A stretch of 34,176 bases of DNA from positions 1 through 34,176 of the forward strand of contig JAFEBR010000271.1 of NCBI GenBank assembly GCA_018242565.1, in the 5' to 3' direction. The number at the start of each line of letters is the position of its first letter. The stretch's first letter is position 1. Source of the stretch: Planctomycetota bacterium. GTDB taxonomy: Bacteria; Planctomycetota; Planctomycetia; Planctomycetales; Planctomycetaceae. Shown here one piece after another: positions 3,456-21,724 of this stretch. A program made the translations under genes and the position numbers. The notes under the pieces were generated by a model. It ran no database searches, was not told the DNA's origin, and saw only the letters and a program-made list of their open reading frames with translations.

Positions 3456-3814
3456 GGTGCTTGTCTCAGGTTGTCAGGAACGAAGTCAGTAAAAGCACAG
3501 GCGGGCGCGTCACGGCGTCACCCACCATCGTGGATGCCGTCGCAGGGCAAATCGTCGGACGAATCGGCGACAGTGTCAAGTGGTGCGACATCCCGTTCGA
3601 CAGTGGGGTCATCTCGAACTCCGACGGTTGTACGTCACTTCGGCGCCGCGCGGCTCATGTGTTCCAGAAGATTGTCGAGCGGTCCTGCGGTGGTGTGACT
3701 GGCGACGGTGGGTATCTGGTGTCCATAATCCGACGCAGGCAAGCGCTTGCCAACCTGAATCTCTTTCTCCCGACAGGCCGTCGAGTGACCGAACGCGTCC
3801 ACCATCATGCCGAT
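3456..3814. other. Divergent intergenic region, start of the RlaP gene uncertain
   Basis: The frame of the downstream nucleotidyltransferase stays open from 3461, but the extra residues (rich in S, R, G with no recognisable fold) look like untranslated sequence, and no ribosome site precedes 3461. The region should carry divergent promoters for the DUF1080 gene and the nucleotidyltransferase pair. I found no clear -35/-10 pair or hairpin. Confidence 0.45.
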
Positions 3815-4735
3815 TTGATTTACTCCGTGGGCACCCAGGTGGTGACACTGGTCAACATTGTGGGGGCCGCGGGTCTGGTGGTACACCCCCGGGGCGCGGT
3901 GGGGGTGGTGGTCAAAGCGCCGGCTGATGTGAATGACACTTATCGGGTCCGTTTCTCAGACGGGTTCGAAGCCGCACTGGCACGCCAGGCTGTCGAAATG
4001 CTGGCGAGGTTTCTGGAAGGCGCCCTGGGGGACAGCGGCGACATGGCTCCGCAGGTGAACCTGCACGATCGCATTATTTACCGCTGCGTTATCGGGTCCC
4101 AGGCGTACGGACTGGCCGACGCAGGTTCTGATATTGATCGGCGTGGCATCTACCTCCCCTCGGCCGAGCAGCATTGGTCCCTGTACGGTGTTCCCGGCCA
4201 CATCGAGTACGACGAAACGCAGGAGGCCTACTGGGAACTGCAGCGATTTCTGGTGTTGGCACTCAAGGCGAACCCGAACGTGCTGGAGTGCCTCTATACT
4301 CCGCTGGTGGAAAAGGCCACGCCGCTGGCTACCGAGTTGCTGAGCCTGCGTTCGATCTTTCTTTCGCGGATGGTGTACCAGACCTACAACGGGTACGTGA
4401 TGTCGCAGTTCAAGAAAATGCAGGCTGATCTGCGGAATCATGGTGCGCTGAAATGGAAACACGTGATGCACTTGATTCGCCTGCTGTTGTCGGGCATTGG
4501 GGTACTGCGTGACGGCGTCGTCAACATTCGTGTCGAGCATGACCGCGAGCGTCTGCTCGCAATTCGACGGGGCGAAATGCCGTGGGCTGAAGTCGAAGCC
4601 TGGAGACTCAGCCTGCACGATGATTTCAATGCGGCCCTGGAACAGACCCACCTGCCGTCCCGCCCCGATTACGAACGAGCCAATGCCTTCCTGATCAGTG
4701 CGCGACGCCGGGCCTTGCATGAGGACCTCCCGTGA
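3815..4735 (+). CDS. RlaP-type (DNA polymerase beta fold) nucleotidyltransferase, first of a tandem pair
   Basis: From the TTG at 3815 the protein has 306 residues. Residues 1-75 are a small beta-rich segment (YSVGTQVVTLVNIVG, HPRGAVGVVVKAP, YRVRFSDGFEA). The catalytic nucleotidyltransferase motif follows: G94-S95-QAYGL and S105-D106-I-D108-RRGIYLP, the GSx(n)DxD pattern of the pol-beta superfamily. The region ETQEAYWELQRFLVLALKANPNVLECLY and the helical KWKHVMHLIRLLLSG block fit the RlaP family (RNA-ligase-associated polymerase, COG3541-like). Such enzymes are predicted to repair RNA ends by adding nucleotides. Alternative starts are GTG 3785 or an earlier one; none has a good Shine-Dalgarno. 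I prefer 3815 because it begins just before the conserved-looking SVGTQVV segment. The next gene overlaps its stop by 4 nt. No RNA ligase gene is nearby. Confidence 0.82.
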   Translation: MIYSVGTQVVTLVNIVGAAGLVVHPRGAVGVVVKAPADVNDTYRVRFSDGFEAALARQAVEMLARFLEGALGDSGDMAPQVNLHDRIIYRCVIGSQAYGLADAGSDIDRRGIYLPSAEQHWSLYGVPGHIEYDETQEAYWELQRFLVLALKANPNVLECLYTPLVEKATPLATELLSLRSIFLSRMVYQTYNGYVMSQFKKMQADLRNHGALKWKHVMHLIRLLLSGIGVLRDGVVNIRVEHDRERLLAIRRGEMPWAEVEAWRLSLHDDFNAALEQTHLPSRPDYERANAFLISARRRALHEDLP

Positions 4736-5487
4736 TTCCCCTGCCCTTATTACGCCATCAGATCGACGACCACTCCTATCCCCTGCTGTTCGCAACCATC
4801 AGTGGGGCGCATCTGTATGGCTTTCCGTCGCCCGATTCGGATTTTGACCTGCGGGGGGCTCACGTGTTGCCACTCCGCGAGATGATTGGCCTGCAGACCG
4901 GGGCCGAAACTGTAGAGCATTCGGGCTTTCGCGAGGGGTTGGAAATCGATCTGGTCACCCACGACATCGGAAAGTTCTTTCGCCTGCTGCTGAAGAAAAA
5001 TGGCTATGTGCTGGAACAGGTGTTTTCTCCGCTGGTTGTGCTGACTACCCCCGAGCACGCGGAACTCCGGGACATCGCCACCCAGTGCGTCACCCGGCAC
5101 CATGCGCACCATTATTTCGGGTTTGCCGAGACACAGTGGCGACTGTTTGAGAAGGAAGATCCACCCCGCGTGAAACCACTGCTGTACCTGTATCGCGTGC
5201 TGCTGACGGGAATTCACCTGATGCAGACGGGGGAAGTGGAAGCCAACCTGGTCCGACTCAACGAGAGCGCAGGCCTGACCTATGTCGATGAGTTGATTCA
5301 GCGAAAAGTGATGGGGGCCGAAAAAGAACGACTCACTGACGCCGACCTGCAATTCCACGCCCGTGAATGCGCCCGGCTGCGCACGCAACTGGAGCAGGCG
5401 TATGCCGCCAGTACGCTGCCGGAAATGCCAGGTGGCGGCGCGGCACTGAATGACCTGTTAATCCGGCTGCGGCTGAAAACGGGCTGA
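4732..5487 (+). CDS. RlaP-type nucleotidyltransferase, second of the tandem pair
   Basis: A 251-residue protein beginning with GTG at 4732, which overlaps the TGA of the preceding gene (GTGA); GAGGA at 4721-4725 is a well-placed ribosome site, so the two are translationally coupled. The nucleotidyltransferase core is S24-G25-A26-HLYGF followed by D35-S-D37-F-D39-LRG, and LEIDLVTHDIGKFFRLLLKKNGYVLEQ supplies a third acidic residue (about D73). It belongs to the same RlaP family as its neighbour but is shorter, lacks the beta-rich N-terminal segment and has GA where the first protein has GS. The two paralogues share the helical region (PLLYLYRVLLTGIHLMQTGEV) that probably positions substrate. 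Predicted role: cytoplasmic RNA-end or nucleotide transfer reactions together with the upstream protein; substrate unknown. Confidence 0.82.
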   Translation: MIPLPLLRHQIDDHSYPLLFATISGAHLYGFPSPDSDFDLRGAHVLPLREMIGLQTGAETVEHSGFREGLEIDLVTHDIGKFFRLLLKKNGYVLEQVFSPLVVLTTPEHAELRDIATQCVTRHHAHHYFGFAETQWRLFEKEDPPRVKPLLYLYRVLLTGIHLMQTGEVEANLVRLNESAGLTYVDELIQRKVMGAEKERLTDADLQFHARECARLRTQLEQAYAASTLPEMPGGGAALNDLLIRLRLKTG

Positions 5488-16604: not shown

Positions 16605-19600
16605 ATGCTCAAGTCGCTTGAACTGTTCGGCTTCAAGAGCTTCGCCGACCGCACGCGGTTTGATTTCGCGCCAGGTATTACCTGCGTCGTCGGACCGAAC
16701 GGGTCCGGCAAAAGCAATGTCGTCGACGCCATCAAGTGGATTCTCGGCGATCAGAGCCCCAAGAGTCTGCGCGGCAAAGAGATGACTGACGTCATCTTCA
16801 ACGGGTCGGCCAACCGGAAACCGGCGCCGCTCGCGGAAGCCATGCTGACGTTCGATAATGCCAAGCGGATTCTGGCACTCGATGCCGACGAAGTGCAGAT
16901 CGGCCGTCGGATCTATCGCTCGGGCGAATCGGAATACCTGATCAATCGTGTTCCTGCCCGTCTGAAAGACATCAAGGATCTGTTCCTGGGCACCGGGGCC
17001 GGCACCAGCGCCTACAGCATCATCGAACAGGGCCGCGTGGACCAGTTGCTGCAGGCCACCAACGTCAACCGCCGCATTGTGTTCGAGGAAGCCGCGGGCA
17101 TCAGCCGGTACAAAGTCCGCAAGGTCGATGCGCAGCGCAAGCTCGAACGCGTCGGCCAGAATCTGCTGCGGTTGACCGACATCGTCAAAGAAGTCGAATC
17201 GCAGCTTAACACCCTGCGAAACCAGGCCGCCAAGGCCTCGAAATTCCGCGAATACACCCAGGAACTCAAGCACCTGCGGGTCGGATCGGCCGCCGACGAC
17301 TTCCGGGCGATTCACGCCCGCCTGCAGGCCAACGACCAGAAACGACAGGAACTCGAAACCGAAATCGAATCGTGTGCCGCCGATGCACACGAATGCGAAA
17401 CCCAGCAGGCCGGTGCCGATGGCCAACTGGCCGAGGCCGAAGACCGGTTGCGCAGCGCCGAACGCCGCGAAGCCGAAAACCGCGAAGCGATTGCCGGCCA
17501 TGAAGCCACCGTCAAACACCAGGTGGCTCGGCGCCAGGAACTCGAAGCCGACTACCAGCGTCTGCACAAACAGCAGGCCGAACTGGCGGCTCGTGTCCAC
17601 GAAGTCGCCGGCGAATTCGAACAGACCGTCGTGGACCTCGAAAAGTACCGCGAGGAATTCACGCACCGTCGCGCCGCGCTGGTCGGTGCTGAAGCCACCG
17701 TGCGGGAACTGACCGAACGCGTCACCGTACTCCGCACGACCCTCGAACGCCAGCGGCACGAACTGCTCGACTCGGTGCGGGGCCTGTCGGCGTACGGCAG
17801 CCGGACGACGACCATCGACGCTCAGCTCAATGTGCTGGCCGAAGCCCAACAGGGCGCCGAGCTGCGTCTCGCCGAGATTGCTCGGAAAATCACTGTCTGC
17901 CGCGAACAATTCGCCGCCCAGGAAAAACTCGTCGGCACGGCCGCCGCCCAGCAGCAGACGCTGCGCGAAGAACTGCAGGCCATTCAGAGCCGTCGCGCGA
18001 CTGTCTCAAACGATCAGGCCGATGCCCAGCAGCGGCTGTCTGAACTGCGTGAACAACGCGGCGCGATTCACGCCCGCCGCGGCCTGCTCGAAGAATTCGA
18101 ACGTCGGCAGGAAGGGCTGGGAGTGGGCGTTAAAGAGATTCTGGCGCTGGCCAAGGAAGCGGAAGGCCCCCCCTGGAACCAGGTCCGCGGGCATGTCGTC
18201 GAATTGCTCGAAGTCGATCTCGAAAACGCCGCACTGCTGGAAGTCGCGCTGGGCGCCCGAGCCCAGTTGATCGTGCTCGACGAAGGAGCCCCCCTCGTCG
18301 ATTACCTGCTCGATGGCAAATGCCGGCTGTCGGGCCGCGTCGGCTTTCTGGCCCTCACGCAGTCCGAAACCGCCGAAGGCAAACCCACCTGGCCCGCGGT
18401 ACCGCAGGCTCCCGGCCTCGATCTGTCGGGCCGGCCCGGTGTCGTTTGCCGGGCTGACCGTCTCGTCCGTTCAGCGTCGGGAATTCACCGCCTGCCGGAA
18501 CGCCTGCTGGCGGACACCTGGGTCGTCGAATCACTCGAAGTCGCCATGGCACTGGCGGGCACCACTTTCGAGCCGTGCCGGTTCGTGACGCTGCAAGGCG
18601 AACTGCTGGAACCCAACGGCACGCTCTACGCCGGTTCGCTAAAGGGAGAAACGGCTCTCGTCTCCCGCAAAAGTGAACTCCGCGGCATCAAGAATGAACT
18701 CGTCCGTCTCGATCACCAGATTGGCGTGACTGTCGAGCTTCTCGAACGGCTGTCAGCCGAAGCTGCCGAGCTGTCGCAGCAGGAACAACAGATTCAGTTC
18801 GATCTCGACCTGTGCGCGCACTCGGTCGCCGAACTGCGGACCGCCCTCGGCGGCAAAGAACTCGATCTCGAACGGGTCGTCCGCCAGGAAGCCGATGCCC
18901 GGGCCGACCTCGAACAGACGCACAGACGCATCGACGAACTCCGCCCGGAATGGGACTCGGCCCAACAGGAAAAGGCCCGGTTGGAAGCGGTTCAGCACAC
19001 GTTGCAGGCCAACATTCAAACAGGCGAACAAGACCTGGCTCATGACGAAGCCCGCCTCAGCGAACTGCAGAATCTCTACGCGGCCGAACAACGCGACCTG
19101 GCCAAGTTCGAAGAACGCCTGCAAAACCTCGAAAGCGCCCGCACCCGCCTCGACCAGGAACGCTTCCAGCGCGATCTGCATCGGGAGGAAGCCGAACGCC
19201 GGTTCCAGATGCTGGCGGCCAAGCGCGACCAGATCGAAGTCGAAATCCAGAATTCGAACGCCGTCCTGCAGGATTTGGCGGCCCAGCGCGAAATCCTGGC
19301 CGCCGATGTCGCCCAGTTGCAGATCGAACGCGATCATGCCCGGTTACGCCGAGGCGAACTGTCGGAACGCGAACTGCAGGTCCGGCATCGGCTGCGCGAC
19401 TTGAAAGACCGTCATCACGCGCTGGAAATGCAATCCACCGAAGCCCGCCATCAACTGGCCAGCCTCGCCGACCGGTTGCGCGATGAATTCCAGGTCGAAC
19501 TGGCCGACGTCGCCGCCGCGGGAGCCACAGCCCGCGTCCCCCACTCGGCTCCCAGCGCCAACACCGACGAGACCGACGAAACGGGCGAACCGAACCAGCC

Positions 19601-20354
19601 TTCGCACGCCAGCGAAGCCGACGCTCAGATGTCTGACGAAGAGCATCGCGCCCATGTCGAAGAACAAATCAACAAACTCCGACGCAAGCTCAAGGCTCTG
19701 GGCCAGGTCAACACCGACAGCCTGAACGAACTCGAAGAACTGGAAACCCGGTTCGCCAAACTCAGCGGCCAGTTGCAGGACCTCGTCGAAGCCAAGAACA
19801 CTCTCGAAGAGATCATTCGCCGGATCAATGTCGAAAGCAAACGACTGTTCATCGACACCTTTACCGAAATCCGTGCGAACTTCCAGGAATTGTTCCGAAA
19901 GCTGTTTGGCGGCGGCGAAGGGGACGTCATCCTGGAAGATATGGAAGATGTGCTGGATTGCGGCATCGACGTGGTTGCCCGTCCGCCCGGCAAAGAGCTC
20001 CGCAGCATTTCGTTGCTGTCGGGGGGTGAAAAGACCATGACCGCCGTGGCCATGCTGCTTGCCATCTTCAAGAGCAAGCCCAGCCCGTTCTGTATCCTCG
20101 ACGAAGTCGATGCGGCACTCGACGAAGGCAACGTGAATCGTTACCTGGGGGTCATCCAGGAATTCCAGCAATGGACGCAGTTCATTGTGGTCACGCACCA
20201 CAAGCGAACTATGGCCGGCGCCGATGTGCTGTATGGCGTGACCATGGAAGAAGCCGGCGTTTCGAAACGCATGTCGGTACGCTTTGATGATATCTCGGAA
20301 GACGGGCACTTTAAGAGCCCGTCGACGCCGGCCGGAGCCACGCACGCCGCCTGA
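16605..20354 (+). CDS. smc: Chromosome segregation protein SMC
   Basis: A 1249-residue protein, a normal length for bacterial SMC. The N-terminal head has [17 protein letters not shown] and Walker A GPNGSGKS (residues 30-37), then the [22 protein letters not shown] and [11 protein letters not shown] blocks. Coiled coil (Q/E/A/R-rich) spans about 170-500 and 670-1010, interrupted by a hinge at about 500-660 ([35 protein letters not shown]). The C-terminal head has the ABC signature [15 protein letters not shown] (about 1137-1151) and Walker [16 protein letters not shown] (about 1162-1176). A T/D/E-rich insertion (about 985-1015) is unlike typical coiled coil. GAGGGAA precedes the ATG. SMC dimers compact and segregate the chromosome with the ScpA/ScpB kleisin complex; those genes are not in the window. 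Confidence 0.98.
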
Positions 20355-20660
20355 TCGGCCAATCGGGCCTCGCTCAACCGGCCGCAAACCGGCGCAACGC
20401 GAAATCTTGCTCTTGACCCGAACGGGCCGGCCACTCTCGCGACAACTTCGTGTCGAATTTTTGCAGACGCCGGACCTGAGGTCTGCGACATGGTTGCCGA
20501 TTCTGCGCAACTGCTTGATTGCCATGCCGTTACAACCGCCCGGACACAGCCCGGCAGGAGCAATCGCTAGAGTCCGTATTGACGGAACTCCTATGCCAGC
20601 ACGGTCGTTCGTGCCAAAGAGCCTAAAGTCAGCATGGCCCGCGGATCGAAAAAATACGTT

Positions 20661-20743
20661 AGACGGTTAGAGCTGGAAAAGAACAAAGAATGCGTGTACG
20701 CCGTGCGTTCAGCGCGTTCGACGATTGGCAGCTCTAGTCGTCT
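20661..20743 (+). ncRNA. Candidate structured RNA with 15-bp closing stem
   Basis: AGACGGTTAGAGCTG (20661-20675) pairs along its full length with CAGCTCTAGTCGTCT (20729-20743) if two central G·U wobbles (20666-20738 and 20667-20737) are allowed. The 53-nt interior holds a second hairpin, CGTGC (20702-20706)/GCGCG (20712-20716), with a 5-nt loop. Because the wobbles become A·C mismatches on the other strand, the plus-strand transcript is favoured. It lies in the SMC to HTH-receiver gap. No known RNA family is recognised; it could be an sRNA, part of the 5' leader of the regulator gene or a processed 3' end. Confidence 0.45.
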
Positions 20744-21090
20744 TGAGTCGGAAGGGGGGTGAGGCCATTACAAAGACAAACCACACAATCTGTGCGGGAC
20801 AGTCGCTGTGCAGGCATTCTCTCCCTCTTTTCGGCGCCATGGGTGCGTCGGATTCCACGGCTGCCAGACCGGTAGCTGCGGCAAGAGGTCGCGACTATGG
20901 CGTACCACGTGACGTTGATTCGTTTTGTGAGTACCCGCTCGTTCCCCGCCAACGTATGGCGACAGACCGCTGAGGCGACTAAACCAACAGCAGTCTTTCG
21001 AAACCAGAGACTCGTTCCGACCCAAGACCACGGTGGTTCGCCAAGAGGACCACTAGGCAAGGACAGCCGACCAACGTGGTAGGGGCGTGT

Positions 21091-21143
21091 CTCCAGAGGA
21101 CCCGCAATCCTCTGCCCTGTTAGACAGTATATATAGTCTGGAG
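21091..21143 (+). promoter_or_regulatory. Possible ribosome-site-sequestering leader of the HTH-receiver gene
   Basis: CTCCAGA (21091-21097) can pair with TCTGGAG (21137-21143), which contains the GGAG of the downstream ribosome site (ATG at 21152). Two alternative hairpins use some of the same bases: CAGAGGA (21094-21100)/TCCTCTG (21108-21114), and AGAC (21122-21125)/GTCT (21136-21139). The first fold hides the ribosome site and the alternatives leave it open, which is the layout of a translational switch. An AT-only run TATATATA sits at 21128-21135. Inferred from base pairing only. Confidence 0.35.
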
Positions 21144-21151
21144 AGCCTGCC

Positions 21152-21724
21152 ATGAAGACGATCTTTACTACTGGACAGGTAGCTAAGATCTGTAAAGTAG
21201 CCCCCCGCACAGTCAGCAAATGGTTTGACTCGGGTCGGTTACGCGGATATCGAATCCCCGGTTCACAAGACCGCCGGATTCCACGCGAGCACCTCATCCG
21301 GTTCCTCAAAGAACACGGGATGCCGCTCGGCGAACTGGAAGACGAAGCCGTTGGCAAAATTCTGATCGTCGGTGCCGAATCCGGGATCCGCAACGGCCTG
21401 AAAGATCAGATGGGTGCCGACACCTTCAAGCTCGACTTCGCCAACAGCGGATTCGAAGCCGGCATTCAGGCTGAATCCCTGCATCCCGATTGCGTTGTGA
21501 TCGACTTCATGATGGGTCGCAACGAAGCCGTGATGATTGCCCAAAACCTCCGCAAGAACGCCGAATACCTGGAAACAGTGCTCGTCGGCCTCTTGAGCGA
21601 CGAAGACAACTCCAGCGGTTTCGACCGCTCGGTGTTCAACGAAACGTTCCGCAAACCGTTCGACGTGGCGCTGCTCGCCGAACGCATCCGGACGCTGGTT
21701 GGTCGCCGTAAACAACTCGCCTGA
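21152..21724 (+). CDS. DNA-binding protein: MerR/excisionase-type HTH plus degenerate receiver domain
   Basis: A 190-residue protein with GGAGAG at 21140-21145 before its ATG. Residues 1-56 are a helix-turn-helix of the HTH_17/BldC type (FTTGQVAKICKVAPRTVSKWFDSGRLRGYRIPG, then RRIPREHLIRFL). Residues about 68-185 follow a response-regulator receiver pattern: beta-1 KILIVGAES, phosphoacceptor-like D118 in CVVIDFMMG, and K168 in FRKPF. The acidic pair normally following beta-1 (DD) is missing (GAES), so phosphorylation by the standard Mg-dependent route is doubtful; it may be a pseudo-receiver used for dimerisation. HTH first and receiver second reverses the usual order. It is a single-gene unit closed by a strong terminator. 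Targets unknown. Confidence 0.83.
   Translation: MKTIFTTGQVAKICKVAPRTVSKWFDSGRLRGYRIPGSQDRRIPREHLIRFLKEHGMPLGELEDEAVGKILIVGAESGIRNGLKDQMGADTFKLDFANSGFEAGIQAESLHPDCVVIDFMMGRNEAVMIAQNLRKNAEYLETVLVGLLSDEDNSSGFDRSVFNETFRKPFDVALLAERIRTLVGRRKQLA

Follow-up and report, generated by a model that had tools for sequence, protein, structure and literature searches.

A conserved structured RNA upstream of an HTH_17-receiver gene in Planctomycetaceae, probably part of a long mRNA leader

CsrA binds RNAs with the SELEX consensus RUACARGGAUGU, and its high-affinity sites are hexaloops that contain GGA and are closed by AC/GU (PMC7652899). Repression of glgC by CsrA involves GGA in a loop together with GGA in the Shine-Dalgarno sequence (PMC7652899). 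The putative leader described here resembles such CsrA/RsmA-controlled leaders in combining an upstream loop GGA and a Shine-Dalgarno GGA in one mRNA, and in that its host genomes carry csrA. It differs from the glgC type in its length of ~490 nt, its several covarying hairpins and family-wide conservation, an upstream block that reaches related orders, and the small number of loop sites in the lineage studied; its CsrA sites are candidates from sequence. The CsrB/CsrC/RsmX-Y-Z decoys have repeated ARGGA-loop hairpins, as do many relatives of the locus described here, but here the element is fixed before one gene, has few sites per molecule, and no independent terminator was seen. The uncharacterised cis-regulatory motifs in Rfam are likewise covarying structured RNAs that lie before one gene family and were found by comparison, whereas no Rfam family matches this leader. 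The leader is new as an RNA family and of a general kind that is already known. Our literature search found no study of post-transcriptional control in Planctomycetes, where it is almost undescribed. The leader adds an RNA family for annotation and, being conserved, covarying and placed on a near-universal regulator, offers a concrete target for asking what the CsrA paralogues of these bacteria do.

The window, by which we mean the whole stretch of 34,176 nucleotides analyzed, contains a gap of 797 nt (20355-21151) flanked by an SMC gene (16605-20354) and by a gene whose protein has HTH_17 and receiver domains. A sequence-only reading had proposed that a candidate structured RNA, transcribed from the plus strand, lies in this gap; the extent of the gap was confirmed. 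The features discussed below are as follows.

20624..20651, + strand: promoter-like block TAAAGTC-N16-CGAAA (7 + 16 + 5 nt), a putative promoter
20661..20675, + strand: 5' strand of P1, the stem of the original finding (fold, covariation, base-by-base pairing), close to the predicted 5' end of the RNA
20688..20719, + strand: inner hairpin (20688-20695/20712-20719), with a 4-bp apical stem (20698-20701/20705-20708)
20729..20743, + strand: 3' strand of P1 (fold, covariation, base-by-base pairing)
20752..20759, + strand: G-run AAGGGGGG, just 3' of P1 and kept in most family members
20992..21121, + strand: element B, a second structured element immediately before the gene (E 2.6e-19 for the covariance-model match)
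21056..21068, + strand: hairpin GGC-AAGGACA-GCC in element B, candidate CsrA site
21094..21114, + strand: final hairpin in element B, CAGAGGA/TCCTCTG, with covariation among family members
21140..21145, + strand: Shine-Dalgarno sequence GGAGAG, containing GGA, candidate second CsrA contact
21152..21724, + strand: gene downstream of the leader, encoding the HTH_17 and receiver domain protein of 190 aa

When the pairs of P1 were listed singly, the 15-bp stem was present as originally described, with 13 Watson-Crick pairs and tandem G·U pairs at 20666/20738 and 20667/20737, and the second hairpin said to lie inside it was also found. P1 is the sole 15-bp stem in the 34-kb window when up to two G·U pairs and a spacer of up to 60 nt are allowed, and six sampled sequences with the dinucleotide content of the window contained no such stem. 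The predicted RNA fold of the hairpin has a free energy of -36.2 kcal/mol (z -3.86), and none of 200 shuffles was equally stable. The hairpin sequence is single copy in the genome, and we therefore rejected a repeated or mobile element. The original claim that it belongs to no recognized RNA family held in an Rfam scan, which gave no match at the gathering score; at a low threshold there were two weak matches, far below gathering scores and neither covering the hairpin. No tRNA or tmRNA was found, and the covariance-model matches to 6S RNA (RF00013; contig C390) and RNase P RNA (RF00010; contig C763) lie elsewhere in the genome.

A DNA search returned one close homologue, from the same genus, with 83% identity (L039). 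The gap could be aligned with this homologue only from ~20578 on, the conserved block extending into the HTH gene, and the stretch just behind the SMC gene showed no conservation. A short open reading frame from 20634 (MARGSKKYVRR...) was rejected since it has an early stop in L039 and lacks its start codon in L121. Among six near relatives, both sides had changed in 10 of the 27 pairs of P1 and the inner hairpin, a value reached by none of 500 shuffles; 82% of the cells paired, compared with 28% once the partner was slid by one base. The tandem G·U is itself a local variant that is not conserved, relatives having G-C, U-A or U·G there. The alignment was trimmed to the stem; for the whole family we used an alignment-free permutation in which P1 strands were exchanged between genomes. 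Across 42 non-redundant family members, own strands paired with a mean of -14.4 kcal/mol versus -10.6 kcal/mol for exchanged strands (0 of 10000 permutations; z -9.8, which is optimistic because the exchange ignores phylogeny). The same mean was -12.0 kcal/mol on the minus strand. Thus, relatives keep the stem by compensatory and wobble changes, as expected for the plus-strand RNA that had been proposed, and our check for relatives with conserved flanks and a missing stem showed that the stem persists. We judge the hairpin to be a genuine, undescribed structured RNA.

The HTH_17-receiver gene was present in 100 of 101 genomes and so is near-universal among family members. We collected the sequences upstream of this gene from 99 loci and searched them with an iterated nucleotide profile (E < 1e-3). 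The region around P1, which we call element A, was found in 77 of the 99, on the same strand as the HTH gene and ~390-670 nt before the ATG, and weak matches to its 5' part occurred in Pirellulales relatives (L091, L095, L096). From 5' to 3' the order is the promoter-like block, the P1 5' strand, inner hairpins, the P1 3' strand and AAGGGGGG, followed by more hairpins, element B, the Shine-Dalgarno sequence and the ATG. A single inner hairpin lies within P1 in the relatives of the window, and usually two (P2 and P3) elsewhere in the family, where P3 often reads GATTGC-ARGGAW-GCAATC; in L121, L122 and L041 P1 is interrupted by an internal loop. Residues inside P1 differ widely between genera, making a small-molecule riboswitch unlikely.

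The sequence-only reading had overlooked a second structured element near the start codon, predicted here from covariation. This element B is separated from element A by ~200 poorly conserved nt and consists of a CCCC/GGGG stem, a second stem, a hairpin GGCY-AGGAN-RGCC and the last hairpin. AGGA is invariant in the family; the window closes this loop with only 3 bp. Both sides had changed in 16 of 21 pairs (0 of 500 shuffles). RNAalifold returned a structure for the trimmed set and none for the full, poorly aligned set. When the element B model was run against 59 genomes, every match with E < 1e-5 was the leader of the HTH gene, one per genome; in other families it gave nothing except one weak match at chance level. 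Covarying secondary structure and a constant position and strand before one gene are both as expected of a structured 5' leader. Based on these comparisons, the hairpin is most likely not an isolated RNA and would form the 5' domain of a conserved mRNA leader, ~490 nt in length, with a predicted regulatory function.

The spacer between TAAAGTC and CGAAA in the promoter-like block was identical in length in ~65 of 69 readable cases, with no sequence conservation inside the 16 nt, and the P1 5' strand starts ~9 nt after CGAAA. A constant distance between two short conserved sequences suggests a promoter that would start transcription at P1. The spaced block did not recur elsewhere above a control pattern. 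The TAAA box led us to examine a sigma-28 (FliA) promoter (TAAA - about 15 nt - GCCGATAA), which we rejected: the spacing of the block is 2 nt longer, the block was upstream of flagellin genes at 0 of 30 loci, and several genomes with the element, this one included, have no flagellin match. The same-genus relative G001 has two flagellin matches. When 170 family genomes were searched for exact copies of the block together with the start of P1, ten matches were obtained, compared with none for a reversed control pattern. All ten precede the leader of the HTH_17-receiver gene, those of eight genomes being known leaders; one extra match, in genome G010 (contig C117), precedes element B and the opening codons of the HTH gene at the contig end. 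This second copy, comprising A, B and the beginning of the HTH gene (G010:C117:21589-22031; L219), is cut by the contig end and is a duplicate or comes from a second strain, the full copy being on C70.

These searches tie element A to the HTH_17-receiver gene, making a cis leader likelier than a free small RNA. We regard as unlikely the reading in which element A is a separate small RNA, such as a CsrB/RsmZ-like decoy for CsrA, and element B the gene's own leader. Element A does have its own promoter-like block and folds compactly, with its 5' end in a closing stem, and with the poorly conserved stretch between A and B it could end as its own RNA, through a terminator or an internal promoter there. 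However, none of our searches found element A away from the HTH gene, P1 is not followed by an evident T-run terminator, GGA-loop hairpins run on through the stretch between A and B, and each A element has one or two GGA sites, far below the number in known decoys.

The reading that we favor, with a probability of roughly 55%, is that a ~490-nt leader on one gene acts in cis, likely through CsrA-family proteins. Transcription would begin at the TAAAGTC-N16-CGAAA block, just before P1, and give one transcript of ~490 nt that has P1 and the inner hairpin as its 5'-terminal domain and runs on into the HTH_17-receiver mRNA. The leader would act in cis on the expression of this gene only. Across family members, GGA would be displayed in the loops of P3, of a hairpin between A and B, and of element B, with a further GGA in the Shine-Dalgarno sequence. 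CsrA-family proteins may bridge these sites and block, or perhaps stabilize, translation initiation.

We counted hairpin loops in 55 non-redundant leaders, using stems of at least 6 bp. Hairpins exceeded their frequency in shuffles by a factor of 2.4 (8.5 versus 3.5 per kb), and each leader has one to three with a GGA loop. GGA occurred in 36 loops of such stems. The expectation was 6.8, the minus strand had 5, and two similarly sized control regions had 10 and 11; the z of this enrichment is inflated because the GGA sites are partly homologous and not independent. GGA ranked first of the 64 triplets in over-representation in loops, whereas the overall GGA content of the leaders was barely above that of shuffles (z 2.6). 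GGA is kept while the stems around it differ between genera, for example in cagagcAGGGACgctctg, cggaacAGGATgttccg and gccggacAGGGAAgtctggc, and loops of the GATTGC-AGGGAT-GCAATC type fit the SELEX consensus with its hexaloop. The Shine-Dalgarno GGA, part of GGAGAG in the window, is conserved as TTGGAGAG. All 59 genomes searched contain csrA, with 2 to 16 matches each and 11 in this genome. Together, the loop GGA, the Shine-Dalgarno GGA and the presence of csrA in the genomes searched make cis control by CsrA the best mechanism on offer, and we give CsrA-type translational control through the leader about even odds, judging from sequence. Such control would be weakest in the lineage of the window because most GGA-loop hairpins were lost there: outside element B, the leaders of the window, L121, L122, L041 and L124 lack strong GGA-loop hairpins. 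ARGGA loops, expected of a CsrA target, occur family-wide and are largely missing from this lineage except at 21056-21068.

In these planctomycetes csrA is strongly multiplied, and several copies adjoin flagellin genes (e.g. in G002, G008 and G013). We tentatively propose, as a wider picture that is somewhat doubtful, an undescribed RNA family in which a two-element leader spans Planctomycetaceae, with its block reaching Pirellulales, the regulator, near-universal, DNA-binding and response-regulator-like, serves as a hub controlled by an expanded set of CsrA paralogues, and the G-run of element A and the CCCC strand in element B may act as alternative partners. In the window, the run AAGGGGGG could pair with a C-rich stretch at ~20815-20832; the C strand of element B is another partner possible in principle.

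Pairing between this conserved G-run and the element B CCCC strand would also be an example of RNA-based switching, one form of a cis leader controlled without CsrA; autoregulation by the HTH-receiver protein or control by another RNA-binding protein are others. Restriction to a single gene is typical of autoregulated leaders and the N16 spacer, being constant, could reflect a two-part protein-DNA site, but HTH_17 proteins are, to our knowledge, binders of DNA and not of RNA. Control of this kind also leaves unexplained why loops on the plus strand alone favor the triplet GGA, and we consider it improbable. Intergenic DNA commonly holds short inverted repeats, yet that P1 is a DNA-level repeat or chance palindrome with no RNA role is very unlikely, being contradicted by the compensatory and G·U-compatible changes, the better pairing of the plus strand, the stability relative to shuffles and the single copy in the genome.

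Elsewhere in the window, the neighboring open reading frames 3461-4735 and 4732-5487 (together 3461-5487) encode proteins that look alike when read by eye and have GSxAYG/SGAHLYG-like nucleotidyltransferase motifs.
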